Source of the DNA: Streptomyces sp. CB01635
GTDB lineage: Bacteria > Actinomycetota > Actinomycetes > Streptomycetales > Streptomycetaceae
Length of the DNA stretch: 64,000 bases
Assembly (NCBI RefSeq): GCF_002803065.1
Contig: NZ_NNBL01000003.1
Coordinates: 124,001-188,000, forward strand
Direction of reading: 5' to 3'
The notes under the pieces were generated by a model. It saw only the letters and a list, made by a program, of their open reading frames with translations, did not search any database and had not been told where the DNA came from. Within the stretch, counting starts at the first letter, position 1, and the number at the start of each line of letters is the position of its first letter. The position numbers were made by a program, and so were the translations under genes. Below, in pieces: positions 15,759 to 44,744 of the stretch.

Positions 15759-17858
15759 ATGAATACTTCGCCGGACATCCCGGGTGGTACTTCGCGCGAC
15801 GTGGATGACGCCACTCTCAGGGCGCTGTTCTCAGAGTCGCCGATCGGCCTGCACATACTGGACACGCAGCTGCGTCTGGTGCGTTTCAACGCGGCCGCGC
15901 GGTACATCCGGGCGTTCCCGGTCGAGGACCTGCTCGGACGCACGGTCGCCGAGGTGCTGCGCGAGTACGGCAAGGATCAGGCGGATGAGGTCGAGGCCAT
16001 GGTCCGCGAGGTGCTGGAGACCGGCCGTCCCAGGCGCGACGTGCTGCTGACGCTGCGCTCACTCCAGCCTCCGCATGCCGAGGTCGCCGTGCAGGCGTCC
16101 TGGTTCCGGCTCCAGGACCTGGAGGGGTGCCCCCTGGGGGTGGCGGCGGCCATCCTGGACGTCACGGACCGCAACCAGGCGCAGGCCCGGCTTGCTCTGC
16201 TGGACCGGGTCGGCAGCCGCATCGGCACCGCCCTCGACCTGTTCGACACCGCGCAGGAGCTGGCGGAAGGTACCGTCCCCGACTTCGCGGACTTCACCAC
16301 CGTCGACCTGTTCGACCCTGTACTGCGCGGTGAGGCACCCGAACCTGGACCTCATCTGGGGACTATCCCGCTGCGTCGTGCGGGCTGGTGCTCACACGGC
16401 AGTCCCGTGACGGCCGGGTGGCCCGTGGCAGGAGAGGTGAGCGGCTTCCCGTCGGGAACCCCGTACCGCGAGAGCCTCACCGACCTCCTTCCGCGATTGG
16501 TGGCCCGGCTCGTGCCGGACGCCGAGTGGCTCGACCGGGACCCCGTCCGCGGTCGGCTGCTGCGCCGGAACCTGGTCCACTCGATGATCGTGGTTCCGAT
16601 GTGCGCCCGCGGTGTGGTTCTCGGCCTGGCCTGCTTCTATCGCGGCCGACGTCCGGACCCGTATGTCGACGAGGACACCGCCCTCGCCGCCCAGCTCGTC
16701 GCCCGTACCGCGCTGTCCCTGGACAACATCCGGCTCTACAACCGGGAGCGGTCGGCCGCCCGCTTGCTCCAGCTCAGCCTCCGGCCCCCCGAGGTCCCTG
16801 TCCACGCCGCTGTCGAGACCGCGCACAGCTACCTGCCGTCCGGCTCCGGCGGGGACTGGTTCGATGTGATCCCGCTCTCCGGCGCTCGTGTCGCCCTGAT
16901 CGCCGGGGACACCGAGGGTCAGGGCCTCCACGCCGCGGCCGCCATGGGCGAGCTCCGCGCCGCGATCGGCGCCTTGGCCGACCTGGATGTGCCACCGGAC
17001 GAGCTTCTCGAACGCCTGCATGATTTGGTGACCCGGCTTGACGACGAGGTGACCTCCACCCCGCACGACGCCTCCCGCTACCGGGTCGTCGGGACCACGT
17101 GCCTGTACGTGGTCTACGACCCGGTGATCCGGCGGTGCACCATGTCCAGCGCCGGCCATCCGCCGCCCGTCATCATTCGCCCCGACGGAACGGCGGAGCT
17201 CGCCGACGTCCCGCAGGGCCCGCCCCTCGGCCAGGGCGTCGCCACCCATCGGATCACGGAACGCGAGCTGCCCGAGGGCAGCATCCTGCTCCTGTGCAAC
17301 ACCCCCTTGGTCCAGGACCGAGATCCCCAGCAAGCCGTGCAGCAGCTCGACCGCATCCGTGCCGCGCTCGCTCCGGAGTCACGCTGCCTCCAAGAGACAT
17401 GCGAGCGGGTGCTGCGCGTGCTCCCCGCCGACGGCCATCAGCACGACCCCGTCCTGCTGATGGCGCGAACCCGTGCCAAGGGCCCCGACCAGGTGGCCTC
17501 CTGGACGCTGCGCGGCGCGCCCGAGGCCGCGGCCGAGGCGCGCAGACTCACCGCCGACCGGCTGTCCGCATGGGGACTGGAGGACTTGGAGGACACCACC
17601 GAGCTGGTGGTCAGCGAACTGGTCACCAACGCCGTGCGTTACTCCGAGGGGCCGATCGGCCTGCGCCTGATCCGCGACCGTACGCTGATCTGCGAGGTCT
17701 CCGACACGAGCAGCACCGCCCCGCACCTGCGACATGCCGAGGCGGACGAGGAGTCCGGCCGCGGACTGTTCATCACCGCCCAGCTGACCCAGCGCTGGGG
17801 CACCCGCCCTGCCCGACGAGGCAAGACGATCTGGGCCGAGCTGAGCCTGTCCGCCTGA
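15759..17858 (+). CDS. PAS-GAF-SpoIIE-HATPase signalling protein with degenerate phosphatase site
   Basis: Domains in the 699 residues: PAS (about 20-150, 'LFSESPIGLHILDTQLRLVR'), GAF (about 165-330), SpoIIE/PP2C (about 345-555, starting 'GSGGDWFDVIPLSGARVALI') and an RsbW-like HATPase (about 570-695, 'ELVVSELVTNAVRYSEGPIG'). Such proteins usually dephosphorylate anti-sigma antagonists and phosphorylate them through the HATPase. Here the PP2C motifs have drifted: GDxxGHG is GDTEGQG, and the metal-binding TDG of 'LYTDGL' is CNTPL, losing an Asp ligand. The distal Asp survives in 'QHDPVLLMAR'. I infer weak or absent phosphatase activity. It is a soluble protein without membrane segments. The ATG lacks a close ribosome site. 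Confidence 0.88.
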   Translation: MNTSPDIPGGTSRDVDDATLRALFSESPIGLHILDTQLRLVRFNAAARYIRAFPVEDLLGRTVAEVLREYGKDQADEVEAMVREVLETGRPRRDVLLTLRSLQPPHAEVAVQASWFRLQDLEGCPLGVAAAILDVTDRNQAQARLALLDRVGSRIGTALDLFDTAQELAEGTVPDFADFTTVDLFDPVLRGEAPEPGPHLGTIPLRRAGWCSHGSPVTAGWPVAGEVSGFPSGTPYRESLTDLLPRLVARLVPDAEWLDRDPVRGRLLRRNLVHSMIVVPMCARGVVLGLACFYRGRRPDPYVDEDTALAAQLVARTALSLDNIRLYNRERSAARLLQLSLRPPEVPVHAAVETAHSYLPSGSGGDWFDVIPLSGARVALIAGDTEGQGLHAAAAMGELRAAIGALADLDVPPDELLERLHDLVTRLDDEVTSTPHDASRYRVVGTTCLYVVYDPVIRRCTMSSAGHPPPVIIRPDGTAELADVPQGPPLGQGVATHRITERELPEGSILLLCNTPLVQDRDPQQAVQQLDRIRAALAPESRCLQETCERVLRVLPADGHQHDPVLLMARTRAKGPDQVASWTLRGAPEAAAEARRLTADRLSAWGLEDLEDTTELVVSELVTNAVRYSEGPIGLRLIRDRTLICEVSDTSSTAPHLRHAEADEESGRGLFITAQLTQRWGTRPARRGKTIWAELSLSA

Positions 17859-32179: not shown

Positions 32180-32313
32180 TCCGGACTCCCTGAGCCGCCT
32201 GAGTCATCTCCGTGGCGCATTTCTCGCCACGTCGCACGCGGCCACCGTTCCCCGGGCCGAACGCCACTTCGCGCGCCCTCAACACTCCTGCACCGCCAAG
32301 GAGATCCCTGGTC

Positions 32314-34752
32314 ATGCCCGCACGCCTTCCGCTGCCCGAACGGTGGCGCCCCAAGTCGATCCGAGCGAAGGTCGTCACCCTGCTGACGGTGCCGGTCCTC
32401 TCGCTGATGGCCCTGTGGGGGCACGCTGCCGTCACCACCGCGTCGCAGGTCTCGTCCACCGAGCAGTTGCGGCAGATCAACTCGGCCCTGGTGCAGCCGA
32501 TCGCGGACTTCACCACCACGGTCCAGGACGAGCGTGCCGCCGCCCTGAAGTTCCGGGCCGCTCCCGGCCCATCTGCCCGCCGTGACTTCGATGCTGCCCA
32601 GTCCCGCACGGACAGGGCCGTCGCTGCTCTGCGCGCGGGCATCCGCTCCAGCAGCACCGATCTTGCGGCCCTCGACGCCCAGCTGCCCGACCGGATCAGT
32701 GCTCTGGTCAAGAGCGCGGGGTCTCTCCCCGAGCAGCGAGAGACTCCCCACGACGCCGCCGCCGTGTTCTCCGGCTACAGCACGTCCGTCGACCGGGCCT
32801 TTGCGGTGCGCGCCGGGCTCGCGGGCGCCGACCGCCCCGACCGTGCCTCCGACACCCGCACCGTCCTCGAACTGGCCCGTGCCCGCGAGGCGTTGAGCCG
32901 CCAGGATGCCGTGCTCGGTGCTGCGCAGGCGAGAGGCACCATGTCCGCCGGCCAGTACCGCGCGTTCATCGGCGACGTCGCCCAGCAGCGCGGGCTCACC
33001 AAGGCAGCGGTGCCCGACCTGCGGGCCGAGGGTGCCGCCCGCTACCGCACCGTTCTCGCCTCTCGCAGCGCCACCGAACTCGCCACCGCTCAGGACGCCG
33101 TCCTCGACGCCGGTGAGGAAGGGGCCGTGTCCGCCGTGCCGGCGGGGGAGTGGCACTCCCTCGCGGGACACACCCTGGCCGGGCTTGCCGCAGCGGAGCG
33201 GGGCGCCGTCGACACGGGCGCCGACGCGGAGCCGTACTCCCTTGCGACTCTGGGAAGCTCGGGCCTGGCGGTGGCCCTCGGCCTGCTCGGTGTGGTCCTC
33301 TCGCTGCTGCTCTCCGTACGTATCGGGCGCGGCCTGGTCGACGACCTCACCGGACTGCGGAACTCCGCTCTGGAGCTCGCCGCCAGCCGGCTGCCGGCCG
33401 CGATCCGCCGCATCCACGGTGGCGACGACCTCGACCTCGACGCCGAGGCCCCGCTCGCCCGCACCCCCATCCGGGACGAGATCGGCCAGGTCGGCGCGGC
33501 GCTGACCACCGTGCAGCGGGCCGCCCTGCGCGCCGTCGCGGGCCGCGCCGCCGTCCTCACCGGAGTCTCCGGCGTCTACGTCAGCCTCGCCCGCCGCAGC
33601 CAGGTGCTGCTCCACCGCCAGCTGGAGCTCCTCGACGCGATGGAGCGCCGTACCGAGAACCCCTCGGACCTGGAAGACCTGTTCCGTCTGGACCACCTGA
33701 CGACCAGGATGCGCCGCCACGCCGAGTCCCTGCTCATCCTGTCCGGCTCCGCGCCCGGCCGCTCCTGGCGCAACCCGGTCCCGCTGATCGACGCCGTACG
33801 CTCGGGCATCGCGGAGACCGCCGACATCGACCGCGTCCAACTGCACGACATCCCCGATCTGCGTCTGGCAGGCACGGCGGTGGCCGACCTTGTCCACCTG
33901 ATCGCCGAACTCACGGAGAACGCCGCCGCGTTCTCGCCCCCGCACACCCCCGTGGTGGTGCGCGGAGAGGAGGTCGGGGCCGGTGCCGTGCTGGAGATCG
34001 AGGACCGCGGTCTCGGCATGGGCGACGAGGCGCTCGCCGCGGCCAACGAGAAGATCCGGACCGCGGACATCGACCTCCTCGACTCGCGTCGGCTCGGCCT
34101 GTTCGTCGTCAACCGCCTCGCCGAGCGCCAGCACGTGGACGTCACCCTGCGCCGCTCGGTCTACGGCGGCGTCACCGCCGTCGTCTTCGTTCCGCAGCAG
34201 CTTCTGGAGGCACCGCACCCAGGCTTGCGGCCCCTGCCGGAGCCGGAGCCTCGGGCGTCCGGTCACGTACCGGCCTCTGATCCGGTCGCCCTTCCCCTAC
34301 CGGCACAGCAGCGCCCCGAACAGGAACCGATCCCCCGACCGGAGCATGAGCCCGAGCCACCGCTCACTCACCCTGCGCCCCTCCAACTCCCCACTCGGGC
34401 CCGCCACGCGGCCCCCCAGCCGACGCAGCCCTCGCTCGCCGTCACCGCGGAAGCCACCTCGAGCGATGACTCCGAGGACGGTCTGCCGCGCCGGGTGCGC
34501 CAGGCCAGCCTCGCCCCCGAACTGCGCGGCGACGAGAACGCGGGCGCTGGTCCGCGGCCGGCCCAGGGCCCGGCCGTCCGATCCCCGGAGGCCGCGCGCG
34601 CCACGATGGCGTCCCTGCGCTCCGGTCGGCGCCGCGCGTCCGCGACTCGGAGCGAGCCGGGCCCACCGTCCGCCCCCGGGAGCCCGTCCGGCGCCCCACA
34701 TGCCGCGCCCCACCCTCACACCGCGACCGAAGAAGGATTCCGAAACCGATGA
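32314..34752 (+). CDS. cvnA: conservon sensor kinase CvnA (nitrate/nitrite-sensing domain histidine kinase-like)
   Basis: The 812-residue protein has an N-terminal membrane helix (about 20-40), an extracytoplasmic NIT-type helical sensor (about 45-300), a second membrane helix (about 315-335), a HAMP-like linker, and an HATPase_c domain ('LIAELTENAAAFSPPHTPVV', 'IEDRGLGMGDEAL') without a clear phosphorylatable H-box. A long Pro-rich tail follows. AAGGAG precedes the ATG. It is the first of four overlapping genes (kinase-like, roadblock, DUF742, GTPase), the classical Streptomyces conservon, thought to work as a membrane complex resembling a eukaryotic G-protein receptor system. The ligand is unknown. 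Confidence 0.9.
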   Translation: MPARLPLPERWRPKSIRAKVVTLLTVPVLSLMALWGHAAVTTASQVSSTEQLRQINSALVQPIADFTTTVQDERAAALKFRAAPGPSARRDFDAAQSRTDRAVAALRAGIRSSSTDLAALDAQLPDRISALVKSAGSLPEQRETPHDAAAVFSGYSTSVDRAFAVRAGLAGADRPDRASDTRTVLELARAREALSRQDAVLGAAQARGTMSAGQYRAFIGDVAQQRGLTKAAVPDLRAEGAARYRTVLASRSATELATAQDAVLDAGEEGAVSAVPAGEWHSLAGHTLAGLAAAERGAVDTGADAEPYSLATLGSSGLAVALGLLGVVLSLLLSVRIGRGLVDDLTGLRNSALELAASRLPAAIRRIHGGDDLDLDAEAPLARTPIRDEIGQVGAALTTVQRAALRAVAGRAAVLTGVSGVYVSLARRSQVLLHRQLELLDAMERRTENPSDLEDLFRLDHLTTRMRRHAESLLILSGSAPGRSWRNPVPLIDAVRSGIAETADIDRVQLHDIPDLRLAGTAVADLVHLIAELTENAAAFSPPHTPVVVRGEEVGAGAVLEIEDRGLGMGDEALAAANEKIRTADIDLLDSRRLGLFVVNRLAERQHVDVTLRRSVYGGVTAVVFVPQQLLEAPHPGLRPLPEPEPRASGHVPASDPVALPLPAQQRPEQEPIPRPEHEPEPPLTHPAPLQLPTRARHAAPQPTQPSLAVTAEATSSDDSEDGLPRRVRQASLAPELRGDENAGAGPRPAQGPAVRSPEAARATMASLRSGRRRASATRSEPGPPSAPGSPSGAPHAAPHPHTATEEGFRNR

Positions 34753-35222
34753 CCCCGACCTTCACCGTCACGAACCTGGGTGACAACCCCGACGACCATG
34801 GCACGGGTGGCGCGGGCGCTGTCGACTGGCTCCTCGACGACCTGGTCGACCGTGTCGCGGAGGTCCGGTACGTGGTCATGCTTTCCACCGACGGCCTGTG
34901 CGTCGGCGCCTCCCACGGCCTGGGGCGTGACGAGTCCGAGCGATTCGCCGCCATCGCCTCCGGGTTCCACTCCCTCGCCAAGGGCGCGGGCCGCCATTTC
35001 GACGCGGGCGGCGTCGTCCAGACGATGGTCGAGCTGCACGGTGGCTTCCTCTTCGTGGTCGCCGCGGGCGACGGGTCCTGCATCGCGGTGTTCACAGACG
35101 GGCACGCCGATATCGGCCTCGTGGCCTACGAGATGGCCCTGCTGGTCGAGCGTGTGCGTGAGCACCTCGCCGTACCCGCGAGGACGGACGGCGCCCCGAC
35201 GCCGGACGGCGGGACGTCGTGA
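34749..35222 (+). CDS. cvnB: conservon roadblock/LC7 protein CvnB
   Basis: The 157-residue protein has a roadblock/LC7 fold ('LLDDLVDRVAEVRYVVMLST', 'GRHFDAGGVVQTMVELHGGF'). In conservons the roadblock protein is thought to regulate the GTPase (CvnD), like MglB with MglA. The ATG overlaps the cvnA stop (ATGA) and its end overlaps cvnC (GTGA), showing tight coupling. The C-terminal tail is Pro/Thr-rich. No anomaly seen. Confidence 0.92.
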   Translation: MTPTFTVTNLGDNPDDHGTGGAGAVDWLLDDLVDRVAEVRYVVMLSTDGLCVGASHGLGRDESERFAAIASGFHSLAKGAGRHFDAGGVVQTMVELHGGFLFVVAAGDGSCIAVFTDGHADIGLVAYEMALLVERVREHLAVPARTDGAPTPDGGTS

Positions 35223-35656
35223 CCGACCTGCCATCCGGCCGCCGACCGACGCCCGACGCCGCCGACCGGGACCCCGACCCCTGGACCGACCGCTATGACG
35301 CGGAGGCCGGCCCTCTGGTCCGCCTCTACGCCATGACCGCGGGCCGCGCGCGTACGGACAACGGCGCGGAACACGTCGACCTGATGGCGATCGTCCGCTC
35401 CACGACCGCCACCCCGCGCGGCCCGATCCCGCCCGAGCAGCGCAGCCTGCTGGCTCAGTGCGCCCAAAAGCCGCGCCCGGTAGCGGACTTGGCGTCGGAC
35501 TCGGGCCTGCCGCTCGGCGTCGTACGCGTCCTGCTCGGCGACCTCACCGCCCAAGGACTGATCCGCATCACCCCGCCCGAGTCCACCGCCGCCGGGAAAG
35601 AACCTGTCTCCGCCCACCTCCTGCGAGAAGTGATCAATGGCCTCCGTGCACTCTGA
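35219..35656 (+). CDS. cvnC: conservon DUF742 protein CvnC
   Basis: The 145-residue protein is a DUF742 member with a winged-helix-like C-terminal half ('SDSGLPLGVVRVLLGDLTAQ', ending [12 protein letters not shown], the typical DUF742 tail) and 'GPLVRLYAMTAGRAR' at the N-terminus. It starts at a GTG overlapping the cvnB stop and extends 20 bases into cvnD. It is probably an adaptor between the sensor and the GTPase; whether it binds DNA is not established. Confidence 0.92.
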   Translation: MTDLPSGRRPTPDAADRDPDPWTDRYDAEAGPLVRLYAMTAGRARTDNGAEHVDLMAIVRSTTATPRGPIPPEQRSLLAQCAQKPRPVADLASDSGLPLGVVRVLLGDLTAQGLIRITPPESTAAGKEPVSAHLLREVINGLRAL

Positions 35657-36233
35657 CCGCGCCGCGCACCCGGCGCCCGCCGACTTCACCGCTCTCAAGC
35701 TGTTGATCGCCGGCGGCTTCGGCGTGGGGAAGACCACGCTGGTGGAGTCGGTCAGTGAGATCCGCCCGCTGCGCACCGAGGAACCCCTCACCGAGGCCTC
35801 ACGCCCGGTGGACAGCCTGGAGGGCGTGGCCACGAAGTCCACGACGACGGTCGCCATGGACTTCGGCCGGATCACCCTGCGCGACACACTGGCCCTCTAC
35901 CTCTTCGGCACCCCGGGCCAGGACCGCTTCTGGTTCGTCTGGGACGAGTTGGCCACGGGCTGCCTGGGCGCGGTCGTCCTCGCCGACACCCGCCGTCTCG
36001 CGGACTGCTTCCCCGCCATCGACTACTTCGAGAGCCGCGGCATCCCCTTCATCGTCGCTGTGAACTGCTTCGACGGCATCCGAACGCACAGCCAAGATGC
36101 GGTGGCGCGCGCCCTCGACCTGACCGCCGACACCCCGGTGCTGCTGTGCGACGTACGCGACCGGGAGTCCGGCAAGGAGGTCCTGATCTCCTTGGTCGAG
36201 CACGTCCTGGCCTTGGACCCGACCCCCAACTGA
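35637..36233 (+). CDS. cvnD: conservon Ras-like GTPase CvnD
   Basis: The 198-residue small GTPase has the P-loop GGFGVGKTT, a G3-type '[10 protein letters not shown]' and an altered G4 (NCFD where NKxD is canonical, common in CvnD proteins). It would switch between GDP- and GTP-bound forms under control of CvnB and CvnA. The ATG lies 20 bases inside cvnC. It closes the conservon; truncated gene fragments follow immediately. Confidence 0.93.
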
Positions 36234-36289
36234 CCCTCCGCATACGGCACCTGCTCGCGGGGCCATGTACTTCTTGTCGGTCCGGATCC

Positions 36290-36381
36290 ACGTACAGCCC
36301 GACTCGGCCGCCGAACTCGGCAGAAGGGTGGCCGCCGAGCATCCCTCGCCGGGGCTGCTCGTGAACAACGCGGGCGTGGGC
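36290..36381 (+). pseudogene. short-chain dehydrogenase fragment
   Basis: The frame reads '[20 protein letters not shown]' and then GVG, like the strand 3 to strand 4 part of an SDR with the NNAG motif. No start, TGGxxGxG motif or active site accompanies it. It ends where an oppositely oriented aldo/keto reductase fragment begins. Confidence 0.45.
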
Positions 36382-36390
36382 GCGGGGCGG

Positions 36391-36549
36391 GACGCGGTCG
36401 CGGTGCCCGCCGGCCAGGGCGCGGCCGACGATCTCCTCGCTCAGGCCCGCGCCGTACATGTCGGCGGTGTCGAGGAAGTTCATGCCCCGGTCCAGCGCGC
36501 CGTGGATGGTGCGGATCGACTCGGCCTCAGACCTGACCGGCGACGCCAA
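36391..36549 (-). pseudogene. aldo/keto reductase internal fragment
   Basis: The frame reads '[20 protein letters not shown]' followed by DTADMYG and '[11 protein letters not shown]', the first half of an aldo/keto reductase barrel including the catalytic Asp-Tyr segment. Both ends are truncated. It abuts the SDR fragment on one side and the next sensor gene on the other. Confidence 0.65.
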
Positions 36550-36552
36550 CTT

Positions 36553-38877
36553 CTATGCCGGCTGGGGGAGTTCTTGCTCGGTCCAGATGGTCTTGCTGCC
36601 GTCGCTGAAGCGTACGCCCCAGCTCCGTGCGAGTTCCGCACAGATGAACAGGCCGCGGCCGCCTTCGTCACTGGTCTGCGCATGACGCAGGTGCGGTGAG
36701 ACGGGGCTGGAGTCGCTGACCTCGACGGTGAGCGTACGGCCCTTGATCAGGCGGAGCGTGATGGGCGGGGCGCCGTAACGGACGGCGTTGGTGGCCAGTT
36801 CACTGACGATCAGTTCCGTGGTGAGTGCGAGCTCGTCGAGGTTCCATTCGGCCAGCTGACGCCGGGTGCGCGCTCGGAGGGTGGCGACGGCCGCAGGGTC
36901 GACCTGCAGCTCCCAGGTGGCGACGAGGCCGGGATCGAGTGTGTGCGTCCGCACGAGGAGCAATACGGCGTCGGTGCCGGGAGAGGGAGCCGGCACGGTG
37001 CGTACCGCTTCGTCGCGGAGGTCGCCCAGCGGCCGTCCGCTGTCGGCGAGGATCTGCCGCAGACGGTACTGGCCGGCCTTCGTCCCGGCCTCGCCCATGG
37101 ACAGAAACGCGTCGGTGCACAGCGCGATGACGCTCCCCTCGGGTAGGTCGAGACGGGTACCGGCAAACGGTGCTTTCTCGCCGGAACCCAGTGGGGGAGC
37201 GACGGGAATGTCGGCTGTCTCGGTTGTTCCGTCGGGGTATGCGATGACGGGTTGCGGGCCTCCGGCAAGGGCGATGACGCAGCTCTTGCTCAACGGGTCG
37301 TAGACCCCGTAGAGGCAGTCGGCGGTCAGTTTTTGGCTCCGCAGGTGGTCGCCGGGTGGCAGGCCGGTGCGTTCGTCGGCGAGTCGGACCACCGTGTCGT
37401 CGAGGCGGGCGAGGAGTTCGTCGGGTTCCAGGTCGAGCGCGCCCAGGGTGTGGATGGCGGTGCGCAACTGGCCCATCGCCATGGCAGCTTGGATGCCGGT
37501 ACCCGAGACGCGGCCGACGGTGAGGGCGGTGCGCGCGCCGGAGAGCGGGAAGAGGTCGAACCAGCCGCCGCCGGCATCGACCGACTGGTGGAACTGGACG
37601 CTCTCCACGGCTGCCAGCGGCTCTGGGCGCTGGGGAAGGAGACGGCGCTGCAGGGCCAGGGCGACGGTGTGTTCTCGGGTGTAGCGGCGTGCATTGTCGA
37701 TATGCAGTGAGGTACGGGAGGCGACCTCCAGTGCGAGGTCGAGGTCCTCGTCCACGAACAGGTCGCGGTCAGGGGCACGGTAGAGGCTCAGCGTCCCGTA
37801 TACGCGGTCCCGGAGGGTGAGCGGGGTGACGATGGCGGAATGCGAGGCTGGTGCGCGCGTGGACCTCGAGCTCCGCGGATCGGTGGCGGGGGCGTCGTCA
37901 GGCTGGTACGTGATCAGTTGGGGCCGCAGGTCGGTCAGGGACTGGAGCCACGCTGCCGGAAAGCGGAATGGGGCTGTACCGGCCCCCGTCGAGCTCTGTT
38001 CACGGTCCGCCGACGCGACGGACATCCGTCGCAGGGGCACGTCGGGTCCCACCGGCGCCGACGGGGGGTCGTCGCCCCGGACGACCGGGTCCAGCAGGTC
38101 CACCACCGCGGCGTCGGCGAAGGCAGGTACGAGCACGTCGACGAGTTCGGTGCAGGTGGCGTCCAGCGCCAGCGACGTTCCCACGTGATTCCGTACGTCG
38201 TTGAGGACCCGTGTGCGGGCGAGGGCACGCTCGCGCACGGTGACGTCCACTTCTGCCGCGGAGAGGCCCAGGACGCGGCCGTCGGCATCCTGGAGCCGGA
38301 ACACGGAGACGGAGTACACATGCTCATGGTCCGGGTCGCTGGGCGGGCGGACGCGCACGAGCCTGTCCAGTGCAGGTTCGCCGGTGGCAAGCACACGGCG
38401 CACCATTGCCAGGGACTCTTCGGGGTCGGACAGCCGGAACACGTCAATGAGTCGGCGACCGAGGGTGTACGCGTGGTCGAAACCGGCCATCCCTGACGCT
38501 GCAGTGTTCACTCGCAGGACTCGCAGATCGGGATCCAGCACCTGCATGCCGATAGGCGATTGCGTGAACAACGCCTTCAGGAGAGCATGCTCGCGCGCAT
38601 CCCCGCCCTCCTCCGACTGGAGCAGGTTGAAAGCCCAGCCCAAGCCACCGTCGCTCAGCGTCACGGGCCGCATCACGAGGCCTGGGTCCGCCCCTGGACT
38701 GTCGGAACGACGGTCGGGGTCGGCGCCGGCCGGAGCCCACGGTCCGGGCAGGAGCTCTATGACGGGACGGCCGAGTGCCTCGGATGCTGTGTGGTCGAAA
38801 AGGGACTTGGCCTCCTGGCTCCACGCCACCACGACACCCGCTGCGTCGATCTTGAGCAGCTCGTCGTCCGGTGCCAT
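36553..38877 (-). CDS. PAS-GAF-SpoIIE-HATPase signalling protein with degraded phosphatase site
   Basis: The 774 residues carry an N-terminal PAS-like segment (about 5-60), a second PAS ('ALFTQSPIGMQVLDPDLRVL', about 105-220), GAF (about 240-405), SpoIIE-like domain (about 425-625) and HATPase (about 645-770, 'ELIVSELATNAVRYGAPPIT'). It is a paralogue of the protein at 15759-17858. Phosphatase motifs are badly altered: GGDWFD is GGGWFD, GDxxGHG is GRVSGTG (first metal Asp lost) and TDG is TDAF. I infer a non-catalytic phosphatase-like domain with a possibly functional HATPase. The ATG at 38877 follows GGAGG by ten bases. The frame runs on upstream to 39297 without convincing coding signal. 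Confidence 0.87.
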   Translation of the reverse strand: MAPDDELLKIDAAGVVVAWSQEAKSLFDHTASEALGRPVIELLPGPWAPAGADPDRRSDSPGADPGLVMRPVTLSDGGLGWAFNLLQSEEGGDAREHALLKALFTQSPIGMQVLDPDLRVLRVNTAASGMAGFDHAYTLGRRLIDVFRLSDPEESLAMVRRVLATGEPALDRLVRVRPPSDPDHEHVYSVSVFRLQDADGRVLGLSAAEVDVTVRERALARTRVLNDVRNHVGTSLALDATCTELVDVLVPAFADAAVVDLLDPVVRGDDPPSAPVGPDVPLRRMSVASADREQSSTGAGTAPFRFPAAWLQSLTDLRPQLITYQPDDAPATDPRSSRSTRAPASHSAIVTPLTLRDRVYGTLSLYRAPDRDLFVDEDLDLALEVASRTSLHIDNARRYTREHTVALALQRRLLPQRPEPLAAVESVQFHQSVDAGGGWFDLFPLSGARTALTVGRVSGTGIQAAMAMGQLRTAIHTLGALDLEPDELLARLDDTVVRLADERTGLPPGDHLRSQKLTADCLYGVYDPLSKSCVIALAGGPQPVIAYPDGTTETADIPVAPPLGSGEKAPFAGTRLDLPEGSVIALCTDAFLSMGEAGTKAGQYRLRQILADSGRPLGDLRDEAVRTVPAPSPGTDAVLLLVRTHTLDPGLVATWELQVDPAAVATLRARTRRQLAEWNLDELALTTELIVSELATNAVRYGAPPITLRLIKGRTLTVEVSDSSPVSPHLRHAQTSDEGGRGLFICAELARSWGVRFSDGSKTIWTEQELPQPA

Positions 38878-39060
38878 GGGCCGATCGCCTCCATGCGTCG
38901 CTCCCCGACGACGGGCAGCAACCCGGCAGGCCGGGAGCCTGCGTCCGGTCAGATCACTTTCCAGAGTGCCTCGCGGCGTCGGGCGCCGCACATCGGCGAG
39001 GCAGCATGCGGCACAGACGTCTGACGAGCCCGGCCTCCCGCGTCTCAGCAGCCGGGGACG

Positions 39061-39350
39061 TTCCTGTGGCCCGTCTACAGCCGCACGAACCGCACCATGC
39101 GGCAGCTCGCGCCGATGTTCGGCTGCTCGTCGGCAACGGTGTGCCGGGTCATCCAGCGGCTGCGCCCGCTCCTGGCCGTTGAGCAGGCGGTGGGACCCGC
39201 TGGCGTAGTCGAGGGGCCCGGATCGTCGACGGCACCCTGACCCCGGTCCGCGACCAGAAGGTCGGTGCTTCCACGCGCAACTACCGGTTCTCGGCAAACG
39301 TGCAGGTCAGGCCGGGATTTTGGTCCCGGACCATGACGTATCTGGCATGA
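39061..39350 (+). pseudogene. frameshifted IS5-like transposase fragment
   Basis: One frame reads 'RTNRTMRQLAPMFGCSSATV' (HTH_Tnp_4 domain) and ends after about 60 codons. The neighbouring frame continues 'RIVDGTLTPVRDQKVGASTR' and 'NYRFSANVQV', the first catalytic Asp region of DDE_Tnp_4. A frameshift near 39220-39235 separates the halves and the C-terminus is gone. The element is inactive. It occupies the gap between the sensor gene and the end of fruA. Confidence 0.7.
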
Positions 39351-39371
39351 GCGGGCAGTTCAGAACTGTCG

Positions 39372-39467
39372 GGTGGCCACCGGTATCTGCTGTCAGGCGG
39401 CCACCGGAACCTCCTGTAAGGCGGCCACCGGAACCTCCTGTCAGGCGGCCACCGGTATCTTCGGCTC
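39372..39467. repeat. four 24-bp tandem units across the fruA stop codon
   Basis: Units begin at 39372, 39396, 39420 and 39444. The middle two differ at one base, and the outer two differ at a few. The fruA stop (39441-39443) lies inside the third unit. Because 24 is a multiple of three, the frame beyond the stop repeats the C-terminal (E/K)(V/I)PVAA sequence before a second TGA. Confidence 0.85.
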
Positions 39468-41474
39468 CTCCCCCTTCTGCGCCGTCGCGTCGCCAGCCCC
39501 GTCCGCCCCGCCCTCGGGCGCGGACTTCCGCATACCCTTCAGGATCACGACCAAGGCCGTCGACACACAGACACCGGCGGCGATCGCGATGAGGTACAGG
39601 AACGGGTTGCCGATCAGCGGGACCACGAAGATGCCGCCGTGCGGGGCGCGCAGGGTGCAGCCGAAGGCCATCGACAGGGCGCCGGTGACCGCGCCGCCCG
39701 CCATCGAGGCGGGGATGACGCGCAGCGGGTCCGCCGCCGCGAACGGGATCGCGCCCTCCGTGATGAACGAGGCGCCGAGCACCCAGGCCGCCTTGCCGTT
39801 CTCGCGCTCGGTCCTGGTGAAGAGCCGGCCGCGCACGGTCGTCGCGAGGGCCATGGCCAGCGGCGGGACCATGCCGGCGGCCATCACCGCGGCCATGACC
39901 TTGAGCGAACCCTCGGTGGGGTTCGCGAGGCCGCCGACCGCGAAGGCGTAGGCGACCTTGTTCAGCGGGCCGCCCAGGTCGAAGCACATCATCAGGCCGA
40001 GGACGACTCCGAGGATGATCGCGTTGGCGCCGGACAGGGAGTTCAGCCAGTCCGTCAGGGCGCGCTGGAGGGAGGCGATGGGCTTGCCGATGACGAGGAA
40101 CATCAGGAAGCCGACCACTGCGGAGGAGATCAGCGGGATGACGACCACCGGCATGATCCCCCGCAGCACGGGGGGCACGTGCACCTTCTGGATCGCCATC
40201 ACGACGCCGCCCGCGATGAGACCGGCGGCGAGGCCGCCGAGGAAGCCGGCGTTGATGGTGAGCGCGATCGAACCGCCGACGAACCCGGGCACGAGCCCCG
40301 GCCGGTCGGCCATCCCGTACGCGATGAAGCCCGCGAGGACCGGGACGAGGAACGCGAAGGCGACGGAGCCGACCTGGAAGAGCAGCGCGGCCCAGCTGTC
40401 GGTCTGGGTCCACACGAAGTGCTCGGCGACGGACGGCGCCTTGTTGATGGTGTAGCCGCCGATCGCGAAGCCGAGGGCGATGAGGAGACCGCCGGCCGCG
40501 ACGAAGGGGACCATGTAACTGACGCCGCTCATCAGCCACTTGCGCAGCTTGGTGCCGTAGCCGTCGCCGGCGTCACCGGCCCGGTCCACGGGGGTCGCGG
40601 ACGCGGCGCCCGAGGTCGTCTCGCCGCGCGCGGCCTTCTCGCGTACCTCGCCGATGAGTGCGGCGGGCCGGTTGATGCCGGCCTTCACGCCGACGTCGAC
40701 GGTGGGCTTCCCGGCGAAGCGGTCCTTCTCCCGTACGGGCACGTCGTGCGCGAAGATCACGCCATCCGCGGCGGCGATCACCTCCGGGGCGAGACGGGTG
40801 AACCCGGCCGAGCCCTGCGTCTCGACCACCACCTCCACGTCCCCCGCCTCCAGGCCGGCCTTCTCCAGGGACTCGGCCGCCATGTAGGTGTGGGCGATGC
40901 CGGTCGGGCAGGAGGTGACTGCCACGATCTTGAACTTCGAGGCGGGGGCCGTGGGAGCGGTCTCGGGCTCGGGCGTGGGCTCCATCTCGGTAGTGGGCTC
41001 GGGCGTGGGCTCCGGCTCGGGCGCGGGCTCGGGTTCGTCCCCGCGGATCAGCGCCGCCGTGGCCCCCGTGTCGGTCGCCGTGCGCAGCGCCGCCTTGAAG
41101 TCCTCGTCCATCAACTGCCGTGCCAGCGAAGACAGGATGGTGAGGTGGGCGTCGTCCGCTCCGGCGGGCGCGGCGATGAGGAAGATCAGGTCGGCCGGGC
41201 CGTCCGGCGCCCCGAAGTCGATCCCGTCGGCGCTGCGGCCGAAGGCGAGGGTCGGCTCGGTGACGTGCTCGCTACGGCAGTGCGGGATGCCGATGCCGCC
41301 GTCGAGGCCGGTCGGCATCTGCGCCTCGCGGGCCGCGACGTCGGCCAGGAAGCCGTCCAGGTCGGTCACCCGGCCCCGGGCGGCCATCCGTTCGGCGAGG
41401 GCGCGGGCCGCCGCCTCTTTGGTGTCGGCGGACAGGTCGAGATCGACCAGGTCCGCGGTGATCATCTCGCTCAT
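39441..41474 (-). CDS. fruA: fructose PTS transporter, fused EIIA-EIIB-EIIC
   Basis: The 677 residues are in order EIIA (about 1-145, phosphorylated His in 'GIGIPHCRSEHV'), a Pro/Glu-rich linker (PEPEPTPEPTTEMEPTPEPE), EIIB (about 187-285, phosphorylated Cys in 'VAVTSCPTGIAHTYMAAESL') and EIIC (about 305-655, multiple membrane helices). It imports fructose and releases fructose 1-phosphate, using HPr from elsewhere. AAGGAG precedes the ATG at 41474. The start overlaps a small coupled frame that itself overlaps fruK. A 24-bp tandem repeat spans the C-terminus. Confidence 0.95.
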   Translation of the reverse strand: MSEMITADLVDLDLSADTKEAAARALAERMAARGRVTDLDGFLADVAAREAQMPTGLDGGIGIPHCRSEHVTEPTLAFGRSADGIDFGAPDGPADLIFLIAAPAGADDAHLTILSSLARQLMDEDFKAALRTATDTGATAALIRGDEPEPAPEPEPTPEPTTEMEPTPEPETAPTAPASKFKIVAVTSCPTGIAHTYMAAESLEKAGLEAGDVEVVVETQGSAGFTRLAPEVIAAADGVIFAHDVPVREKDRFAGKPTVDVGVKAGINRPAALIGEVREKAARGETTSGAASATPVDRAGDAGDGYGTKLRKWLMSGVSYMVPFVAAGGLLIALGFAIGGYTINKAPSVAEHFVWTQTDSWAALLFQVGSVAFAFLVPVLAGFIAYGMADRPGLVPGFVGGSIALTINAGFLGGLAAGLIAGGVVMAIQKVHVPPVLRGIMPVVVIPLISSAVVGFLMFLVIGKPIASLQRALTDWLNSLSGANAIILGVVLGLMMCFDLGGPLNKVAYAFAVGGLANPTEGSLKVMAAVMAAGMVPPLAMALATTVRGRLFTRTERENGKAAWVLGASFITEGAIPFAAADPLRVIPASMAGGAVTGALSMAFGCTLRAPHGGIFVVPLIGNPFLYLIAIAAGVCVSTALVVILKGMRKSAPEGGADGAGDATAQKGEEPKIPVAA

Positions 41475-43472: not shown

Positions 43473-43652
43473 GTCCGTCTGCCTCCGACGTCTCGCCCGG
43501 ATGTGCCCGAGTCTGTGGTTTCGATCTGAGGCTACGGCTTGATTTCTGGAAAGTAAACAGGTTCGGGCATGTTGCAGACACAATCGGACTTTGATCAGTC
43601 GACCCTGTTCGTCAGAGCGCCATGCCCTCATTACGTAGATATTCTGGGAAAT

Positions 43653-44744
43653 GTGATCGAGTCCGGACGGCCGCGGCTCCGTAGGCGCCCCGGCCCAGGA
43701 AGGCTTGTACGGCTGTCGCCGGTCATCCTGACCGTCGTCATCGCCAGCCTGGCATACGCCACTCCGCCGGAAATGGCCTTCAGCCGCCTCCTGCCTGCGG
43801 CGCCGGCCCTGGCCGCCGCCATGTGGCCGGTCCTCCCCACCGTCCTGCTCGGGACGGTCTGCCTCTTTCTGATGATCGGCCTCAGTCTCGTCTTCCCTGG
43901 TCTGGGAACGTGGTGGACGGCCGCGGGGATCATCGCGGTCACCGTGGCCGCCGCGTACGGAAGCCATGTCCGGCTCCAGCGGGAGCGCACCCTCCTTCAG
44001 GTACGGCTCGTCGCCGACGCGGCGCAGCAGGTGGTGCTGAGCCCTATGCCACGCCGCTTCGGCAGCATCGAGGTCGAGTCGCTGTATCTCGCGGCCGCGG
44101 CGGAGGCCCGCATCGGCGGGGATTTCTACGAGGTGGTCGACACGCCGTACGGGGTCAGGCTGCTCATCGGTGACGTGCGGGGCAAGGGTCTGCCTGCAGT
44201 GGGGGCGGCCGCGGCGATCGTCAACGCCTTCCGGGAGGCGGCCTACGGCGAGCCCGACATGGTCAACGTCGCACGCAGGCTGGACGCCAGCAGCACCCGT
44301 TACAACGCCGCCTTTCCGCCCGAGGGGCCGATGGAGCGCTTCGCCACCGCCCTTCTCGTCGAGATCCCGCACGACGGCAGACGTATCGGCATCCTCAACT
44401 GCGGACACCCCCCGCCACTGCTCCTGAACCGCGGGAGACTCCGTGCCCTCGAGTCGGCCACCCCCTCGCCGCTGCTCAGCCTCTCGGAGCTGATCGGCGA
44501 TCAGTACAACGTCGACACCTTCGACTTCACCCCCGGCGACCTGCTCCTTCTCTATACCGACGGGATCGCCGAGGCCCGCGCCCGCGACGGCGAGTTCTTC
44601 CCGCTGGCAGCTTGGATGCGTCGACAGCCCCCGACGCCGCCCCGCGAACTGCTCACGGCTCTTCACCGTGATCTCCTGCGCCACAGCAGAGAACGCCTTG
44701 ACGACGACGTCGCCGCCCTCGCCGTACGCCTGAGTGAGCCCTGA
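43653..44744 (+). CDS. membrane-bound PP2C (SpoIIE/RsbU) Ser/Thr phosphatase
   Basis: The 363-residue protein has three or four N-terminal membrane helices (about 20-110), then a complete SpoIIE phosphatase domain. Its metal motifs are intact: 'IGGDFYEVVDT', 'GDVRGKGLPAVGAAA', 'LYTDGIAEAR' and 'DDDVAALAVRL'. It should dephosphorylate an anti-sigma-factor antagonist at the membrane. This contrasts with the two degenerate SpoIIE domains elsewhere in the window. The GTG at 43653 is chosen because the family starts there; an ATG at 43569 in frame would add 28 unlike residues. It is divergent from fruR, with no obvious partner genes. Confidence 0.88.
   Translation: MIESGRPRLRRRPGPGRLVRLSPVILTVVIASLAYATPPEMAFSRLLPAAPALAAAMWPVLPTVLLGTVCLFLMIGLSLVFPGLGTWWTAAGIIAVTVAAAYGSHVRLQRERTLLQVRLVADAAQQVVLSPMPRRFGSIEVESLYLAAAAEARIGGDFYEVVDTPYGVRLLIGDVRGKGLPAVGAAAAIVNAFREAAYGEPDMVNVARRLDASSTRYNAAFPPEGPMERFATALLVEIPHDGRRIGILNCGHPPPLLLNRGRLRALESATPSPLLSLSELIGDQYNVDTFDFTPGDLLLLYTDGIAEARARDGEFFPLAAWMRRQPPTPPRELLTALHRDLLRHSRERLDDDVAALAVRLSEP

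Follow-up and report, generated by a model that had tools for sequence, protein, structure and literature searches.

The minus-strand gene at positions 36553 to 38877 of the 64,000-nucleotide stretch of Streptomyces sp. CB01635 DNA analysed here (contig NZ_NNBL01000003.1, positions 124,001 to 188,000; the window) is a single open frame for a 774-residue protein with the Pfam architecture PAS-GAF-pseudo-SpoIIE(PP2C)-HATPase. Judged from its motifs, the phosphatase of this protein is almost certainly dead. Its orthologues are conserved, as are the switch helices of the PP2C domain, which argues for selection for a non-catalytic role; we consider such a conserved role very probable from the alignments. 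A preliminary description of this DNA had argued for selection from losses in two paralogues of the window that retain their domains. The conclusion is well supported, but two losses alone would not imply selection. As to mechanism, we regard a relay from PAS/GAF through the switch to the HATPase as about evenly balanced between right and wrong.

Metal-ligand motifs and domain architecture

In Bacillus subtilis SpoIIE, Mn1 is bound by Asp628, Asp746 and Asp795, and the putative Mn2 by Asp628, Gly629 and Asp610 (PMC3517971). An active PP2C/SpoIIE phosphatase has four metal-ligand aspartates, at columns 610, 628, 746 and 795, where the 36553-38877 protein has G, R, D and T. Three of the four ligands are lost, leaving Mn2 without a side-chain ligand and Mn1 with one of three (PMC3517971). 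By motif reading and alignment, the Asp610 equivalent is G438 in GGGWFD (37555 to 37572; all features of this gene are on the minus strand), and motif reading with the orthologue alignment shows the Asp628 equivalent replaced by R456 in GRVSGTG (37495 to 37515). Both motifs sit where the preliminary description put them, at 37572 and 37515. That description counted TDAF among the losses as well; this motif is indeed present at 37116 (37105 to 37116), but it keeps its ligand, the Asp746 equivalent, and the sole change is the next glycine to alanine. The list of losses was right for GG[D] and G[D] and incomplete in omitting [D]D: in GTDAV (36964 to 36978) the Asp795 equivalent has become T635 (Asp to Thr at 36975), the position of this column having been settled by alignment to Mycobacterium tuberculosis Rv1364c.

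The first paralogue, a PAS-GAF-SpoIIE-HATPase protein at 15759 to 17858 on the plus strand, has D, D, T and H at the four columns by motif reading, so that the two sets of losses differ, as had been claimed, and have [D]D alone in common. The membrane PP2C at 43569 to 44744 (plus strand) is an intact internal contrast as described, with all four motifs readable by eye (GGDFYE, GDVRGKG, YTDG and DDDVAAL) and a SpoIIE profile match of 135 bits.

The PP2C/SpoIIE fold itself is well recognisable. The SpoIIE profile PF07228 matches residues 447-644 with 108.2 bits (cut-off 25), and with the structure matches the degenerate domain spans residues 420-646 (36940 to 37620). An AlphaFold2 model of the whole protein has a mean pLDDT of 88.5 and a pTM of 0.71, with the SpoIIE region mostly above 90; it predicts an intact PP2C fold despite the lost metal site, although a model is no proof of stability or activity. 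Foldseek and VIA-align both place the RsbU-RsbW part of Rv1364c (3ke6_A) first, with a VIA Z of 26.6 over residues 411-770, and in a PDB sequence search Rv1364c (3ke6) is the sole match at E 0.01 (E 1.1e-8). The superposition has an rmsd of 11.6 over 323 residues, so the PP2C and HATPase domains are not superposable on Rv1364c as one body. PP2C structures of SiaA, P. aeruginosa RssB, RsbX and SpoIIE give Z values of 21.2-24.5, the SiaA and RssB PP2C domains ranking after Rv1364c in VIA-align, at 21.4-24.5; P. aeruginosa RssB gives 21-23 and E. coli RssB (8t85) 17. Rv1364c has the same order of PAS, PP2C and RsbW-like HATPase, to which the 36553-38877 protein adds a GAF domain. The alignments show that Rv1364c retains GGDWFD, GDVVGHG, TDG and DD, unlike the window protein with its three lost ligands. 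Moreover, Rv1364c carries a STAS domain (PMC9138534, PMC12143880), whereas the 36553-38877 protein stops after the HATPase, and the Pfam scan found no STAS match up to E 1.

The remaining domains frame this dead centre on both sides. The start ATG lies at 38877, with GGAGG 10 nt before it, and the N-termini of the orthologues line up. Two PAS_4/PAS stretches were found in the Pfam scan. A PAS-like segment at residues 1-90 (38608 to 38877) is tentative, being drawn from model secondary structure and a pLDDT that is partly low, and a PAS_4 domain follows at residues 104-217 (38227 to 38568; PF08448, 2.3e-20). The GAF domain covers residues about 238-393 (37699 to 38166) from the model and a PF13185/PF01590 match at 302-392. 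DSSP on the model gives a long alpha0-like linker helix from GAF to PP2C, residues 376-413 (37639 to 37752), which is conserved in degenerate and canonical groups alike, and the model also delimits the switch helices alpha1 and alpha2, residues 461-504 (37366 to 37497). At the C-terminus, Pfam finds an RsbW-like HATPase_c_2 domain at residues 659-763 (36589 to 36903) with an intact ATP site (N-box Glu and Asn, an Asp, and GxG): E693, N697, D722, G740 and G742 are invariant in an 85-row alignment. The roles of the N-box Glu and Asn are taken from SpoIIAB. The NCBIfam model RsbA gives a partial match (2.5e-9), below its cut-off.

A degenerate clade with a conserved switch

Among 392 Streptomyces genomes, a clear orthologue (more than 1200 bits, the next best match having 860) was found in eight, the source genome and one of the same species included, at nine loci. 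None of the eight other sequences (57-95% identity) is canonical at GG[D] or G[D]. In the nine rows, column 438 is G and column 456 is R throughout, column 589 is D in seven and column 635 is D in one. The preliminary description had named canonical motifs in all close orthologues as the mark of a merely decaying copy, and the nine rows speak otherwise. Six of them, the window's included (57-73% identity), were aligned and show no variation in G437 G438 W F D, G455 R456 V S G or the HATPase boxes; recurrence of both substitutions in orthologues that have diverged this far goes beyond chance. All nine loci hold stop-free open frames, down to 57% identity. NG86 dN/dS over the nine orthologues (36 of 36 pairs) has medians of 0.37 for SpoIIE, 0.34 for GAF and 0.21 for HATPase, values that are rough given a median dS of 0.65-0.81 but below 1 for SpoIIE; YN00 was set aside as main evidence, since it returned values for just 7 to 16 of the 36 pairs. 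The ratio of SpoIIE to GAF dN was 1.00, 1.10, 1.63 and 1.35 in degenerate groups, 1.01, 0.55, 0.49 and 0.55 in intact groups and 0.88 in a mixed one. The SpoIIE domain is thus partly relaxed yet under purifying selection.

For a wider view we assembled 125 proteins of the same architecture, gathered by similarity and hence no census: 48 have four ligand Asp, 56 have at most two acidic ligands and 21 lie between. Trees were built from GAF, SpoIIE and HATPase after the motif columns had been taken out. The tree of all 125 rows has a branch (SH-aLRT 96) with 54 of the 56 degenerate rows and two intermediate rows on one side, both window paralogues being inside this assemblage; the other two degenerate rows (L117 and L069) are singletons elsewhere. 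A 78-row tree, an author-chosen subset rooted on L013/L018, recovers the assemblage (37 chosen rows) at 87/96 and in 88% of bootstrap trees, a core of 30 rows at 100/99 and the window protein's own clade at 100/100. We further used a 239-row FastTree with motif and switch columns left out, the least trustworthy of the three methods and with several long branches flagged. Here all 69 core sequences (the degenerate rows minus seven basal rows, L117, L069 and 12 duplicates; 20 of them placed on this tree only) fall into one group of 106 rows at SH-like 96 with no canonical member. The remaining 37 rows of the group are degenerate proteins from the unseen test set described below, and one degenerate row, L294, stands outside it.

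Asp is found at GG[D] in none of the 69 core members and is absent from G[D] in 65; one ligand Asp or none remains in 67, and two remain in the other two. The letters that replace the ligands vary widely across the core clade, with E for D at G[D] in 27 of 69. The HATPase residues, by contrast with those of the metal site, read ENDGG in 69 of 69. The preliminary description had proposed looking for a clade with conserved non-catalytic features, and such a clade exists, its core having these HATPase residues and the switch signature set out below.

A helical linker and alpha1/alpha2 control the phosphatase or phosphatase-like domain of RsbU and RssB (PMC12143880), and in SpoIIE and RsbU metal binding is coupled to signals and substrate through this switch (PMC8080068). 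We compared conservation in pairs matched on HATPase identity in three bins, from 51 degenerate and 32 canonical sequences. An earlier comparison had included loci found by a pattern inside the switch, LDLE[PC]DEL; the figures that follow leave those loci out, and those for the switch without the pattern columns are given further below. From canonical to degenerate pairs, identity in the catalytic motifs falls from 76 to 40, 82 to 45 and 82 to 50% in the three bins, and in the rest of the PP2C domain from 45 to 39, 54 to 43 and 61 to 50%. The linker helix goes from 57 to 50, 66 to 58 and 68 to 63%, and alpha1 and alpha2 together from 50 to 61, 66 to 66 and 70 to 68%.

In the degenerate group (49 degenerate versus 32 canonical sequences), 6 of 44 columns are newly fixed in the switch and 0 of 38 in the catalytic motifs. 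The corresponding counts are 5 of 134 for the remaining SpoIIE columns, 2 of 38 for the linker and 5 of 116 for the HATPase; the switch excess is suggestive only (Fisher p = 0.053). Canonical-fixed columns lost in the degenerate group number six in the switch and 10 of 38 in the catalytic motifs. Four of the conserved residues form a stripe on one face of alpha2 (i, i+4, i+8, i+12): R491 in 49 of the 51 degenerate sequences, T495 in 45, L499 in 50 and R503 in 47. At positions 470, 491, 495 and 503, the 32 canonical sequences mostly have R, H, L and a variable residue, where the degenerate clade has Q, R, T and R. The clade signature is Q470 A490 R491 T495 L499 A500 R503; all 69 core sequences score 5-7 of 7, and in the 104 others the score never exceeds 4, apart from a single sequence with 5.

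Given that the core set helped define this signature, a separate test was made on unseen proteins. A profile limited to the switch (A3, 45 columns) was searched against 199 Streptomyces genomes and 121 genomes of the family, and 96 loci were read, 40 of them hand-picked from the score lists across the score range before their ligands were read. Four loci lacked a usable ORF (L233, L250, L280, L308) and 26 had been seen or were repeated, which left 66 unseen proteins; a 90% identity cut removed 20 more, leaving 46. Of the 66, 40 had a signature of at least 5, and 38 of these kept no more than one ligand Asp; of the 26 with a signature of at most 4, 25 kept three or four. The non-redundant set gave 26 of 28 for signature with ligand loss and 17 of 18 for absence with retention, and among its 21 proteins with a signature of 6 or 7 there was no exception. 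The exceptions are L282 (DDDD) and L274 (DDND), both scoring 5, and L287 (DGEE), scoring 4; only Asp was counted, and L294 (AEDE, score 5) was scored as a loss despite three acidic residues. ENDGG was read in 38 of the 40 out-of-sample rows with a signature of at least 5, the two others reading '---G-' and 'ENGGR', perhaps from truncation or misalignment. What this test establishes is a real and recognisable clade; it does not show repeated origins of the changes.

Six members of the assemblage are encoded in the source genome (10.06 Mb, with 60 SpoIIE profile matches, fragments among them): the 36553-38877 protein (L001), the 15759 paralogue (L004), L002, L003, L005 and L010, of which L003 reads EEDD and still has four acidic residues. 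Canonical paralogues of related architecture in the same genome (L006-L009 and L014 among them; 40-46% identity over the matched part) keep all four ligand Asp, unlike the 36553-38877 protein. Membership of the core was defined by tree position together with two or fewer acidic ligands, absence of Asp from GG[D] and five or more of the seven signature residues. The 36553-38877 protein has all seven, reads GRDT and lies within the core. The 15759 protein branches outside it and is no core member: its GG[D] and G[D] motifs still have their Asp, and Q470, A490, T495, A500 and R503 are missing. This bears on the claim that the two copies were degraded independently. It is favoured by the place of 15759 outside the core and by the restriction of common loss to [D]D; the position of 15759 has weak branch support, however (92/41 on the 78-row tree), and the loss at [D]D may be a single early one that both share. 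For the other columns, independent loss explains these sequences more simply and is moderately supported. By parsimony and a two-state model, the ancestor of the assemblage had Asp at GG[D] and is split or uncertain at the other three columns. We give no number of loss origins because acidic letters come and go.

The Asp746 column is also labile among relatives with otherwise canonical motifs. On the canonical side of the tree TNG often replaces TDG (L059, L065, L068, L076, L080, L083, L098 and others), a recurrent Asp-to-Asn change at one Mn1 ligand. Outside the degenerate assemblage, the equivalent Asp is present in 52 of 69 rows, compared to 65-67 of 69 at the other three ligands, and the column takes 18 parsimony changes over the whole tree.

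Readings of the probable non-catalytic role

We propose that signals sensed by PAS/GAF would travel via the long linker helix to the switch helices alpha1 and alpha2, which, no longer gating metal, would set the dimer state; the dimer state would in turn control either how accessible the C-terminal RsbW-like HATPase is or which conformation it adopts. The dead PP2C would then be a dimerising relay of a sensor-controlled RsbW-like HATPase. Canonical relatives would work in both directions, as kinase and as phosphatase on an anti-anti-sigma STAS protein, and members of the degenerate clade kinase or anti-sigma only, the opposing dephosphorylation falling to other PP2Cs of the cell. In Bacillus RsbU and SpoIIE, the linker helix and/or the alpha1/alpha2 switch likewise governs the dimer (PMC12143880, PMC8080068), but these are active enzymes in which the switch governs metal binding, and the 36553-38877 protein misses three of the four ligands. 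A bolder form of the proposal, in which a family-wide class of metal-free PP2C relays exists in Streptomycetaceae and R456, at the site of the M2-metal ligand Asp628, mimics metal occupancy, is rather unlikely. If it held, the mimic (a feature of the protein's own subclade, present in all nine orthologue rows) would lock or bias alpha1/alpha2, and dimerisation instead of metal binding would become the output controlled by PAS/GAF.

Several results weigh against the relay. The PP2C domain evolves somewhat faster than in canonical groups, its constraint being partly relaxed. Without the eight pattern-scan columns, switch identity goes from 47 to 58, 67 to 64 and 72 to 67%, up in one bin and slightly down in two, and new fixation reaches beyond the switch (16 of 158 columns in GAF versus 6 of 44). 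The correlation between signature and ligand loss is largely the shared ancestry of one clade, not many independent events. That the HATPase is an active kinase is suggested by its motifs. Finally, no recurrent sigma, STAS or anti-sigma partner was seen beside 30 core loci, where neighbours were compared as sequence clusters and by eye, without a family search.

The dead PP2C could instead act as an RssB-like adaptor or trap. It would bind a phosphorylated STAS protein (or a sigma factor) but not turn it over, and would either sequester this protein or hand it to the HATPase; sensing would be coupled to binding by the switch. A pseudoenzyme may keep the allosteric switch of PP2C after catalysis is lost, with RssB named as example, and its switch is proposed to control substrate binding (PMC5468089). 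Substrate recognition in SpoIIE and RsbU is by switch-coupled loops (PMC11418112), and RssB structures are among the structural matches given above. RssB uses the PP2C fold without phosphatase activity, with switch helices and a helical linker as the regulatory device (PMC5468089, PMC12143880), and the 36553-38877 protein appears to share its combination of a dead PP2C with retained switch helices. However, RssB carries a receiver domain, and its task is the delivery of sigma-S to ClpXP. The window protein has PAS/GAF in that place, with no receiver domain in the Pfam scan, carries an RsbW-like HATPase after the PP2C and belongs to a multi-gene family. The rest of its PP2C domain is less conserved than in canonical pairs in all three bins, and a small STAS-like ORF was recognised beside one orthologue only, without a Pfam or NCBIfam match. 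We consider such an adaptor unlikely.

It is improbable that the PP2C is a mere structural spacer, with PAS/GAF acting directly on the HATPase. An intact predicted fold and the newly fixed GAF columns would suit a spacer, but a switch that stays conserved as the catalytic motifs lose identity, and the alpha2 stripe at 491, 495, 499 and 503, exceed what a spacer needs. Ordinary decay, that is, a copy under relaxed selection with no non-catalytic role, was already disfavoured and has very little left to recommend it: the partly relaxed SpoIIE dN, the wide variation of ligand letters over the core clade and the loss of surrounding gene order outside the species fit it, but stop-free frames at nine loci, a SpoIIE dN/dS below 1, switch helices that are little or not relaxed and have newly fixed residues, HATPase residues kept throughout the core, and a clade-typical level of the switch profile in at least 50 of 199 Streptomyces genomes, plus other genera, do not. 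Continued phosphatase activity through other metal ligands or a metal-independent mechanism, to which the one Asp left in TDAF and the E for D at G[D] in part of the core would lend themselves, is scarcely credible with Mn2 devoid of side-chain ligands and Mn1 reduced to one (PMC3517971), a positive charge from R456 at the metal-ligand site in every orthologue row and not one newly fixed residue in the catalytic motifs.

Neighbourhood, distribution and meaning

A conserved neighbourhood was tried as a clue to a partner and rejected: gene order is kept in the same-species genome G161 (L148) and not in the seven other stretches (L149-L155), although the orthologue stretches of G065, G087 and G170 have some neighbours in common. 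The largest neighbour cluster of the 30 core loci (44 genes; the focal gene was uncalled in one locus, L156) lumps focal proteins with other SpoIIE/HATPase genes, which means that further genes of this kind do occur nearby in some loci. About 300 bp past the G041 orthologue lies a 104-residue ORF that by eye resembles a STAS anti-anti-sigma protein (L151:8459-8770, minus strand); neither Pfam nor NCBIfam gives a match for it, and the source genome contains a single weak one. In G131 and G193, the degenerate gene has a same-strand neighbour, no more than about 110 bp away, that encodes a membrane PP2C (L157:7562-8695, minus strand; L156:11517-12722, plus strand). These membrane proteins show all four ligand motifs, reading GGDIYE, GDVQGKG, SDGV and DDIT, and are about 38% identical to the 43569 membrane PP2C, and a division of labour between degenerate gene and adjoining membrane PP2C is possible.

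In the window, the gene sits between what we take to be a conservon-like cluster and a fructose-PTS cluster. The former, a set of four genes presumably encoding sensor-like ATPase, roadblock-like, DUF742-like and small GTPase-like proteins, lies beyond the 3' end of the gene at 32212 to 36233 on the plus strand. Directly downstream, at 36049 to 36549 (minus strand), a stub covers positions 17-64 of 291 of an aldo/keto reductase profile and looks like a truncated gene of that family. Upstream, at about 39020 to 39240 (plus strand), a frame that ends early at a stop resembles by eye the N-terminal part of an IS5-like transposase. IS-like ORFs were also seen by eye upstream of a G024 orthologue (L150, 6921-7730), and such ORFs may bear on the changing neighbourhoods. 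A sigma-70 consensus scan, the only one made, found no promoter- or terminator-like site in 36200-39500.

The switch profile reaches at least 78.5 bits in 50 of 199 Streptomyces genomes, unread matches being inferred from score and the highest canonical protein among those read (L282, 78.1 bits) coming close to this cut. Degenerate members were read in three other genera of the family, g3 (L260), g7 (L252) and g11 (L251), and core members include proteins of Streptomyces hygroscopicus (L040), S. atroolivaceus (L045) and Streptacidiphilus anmyonensis (L073). The family may have expanded in genus g7, where the genomes G411, G464 and G481 gave 14, 9 and 13 matches to the switch profile at E 1e-15. 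Two members are on plasmids, L316 of S. goshikiensis (QGTG, 7/7) and L317 (ADAG, 5/7), and both are labelled 'SpoIIE family protein phosphatase' (WP_328777662.1 and WP_143626569.1); a third plasmid protein, L318 (DHLE, 1/7), is degenerate without the signature. Counts of phosphatases drawn from such labels would take in dead members.

Among the open-licence PMC papers listed in a search, judged by titles and the starts of abstracts, none dealt with a pseudo-SpoIIE clade in Streptomyces. A study of Streptomyces PPM evolution by Zhang and Shi (2004) may already mention inactive members.

If the bolder reading, with R456 as a metal mimic, is true, a two-way kinase and phosphatase would have become a one-way, sensor-gated anti-sigma kinase. 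It would also be a natural instance of a state proposed for PP2C evolution, a pseudoenzyme with its allosteric switch kept and its chemistry lost. The clade itself adds many more natural cases of a switch outliving catalysis, as proposed in PMC5468089, mostly in one genus. Canonical relatives that share its architecture occur in these same cells, and a sequence signature separates the two, which makes the purpose of a switch without an enzyme directly testable.

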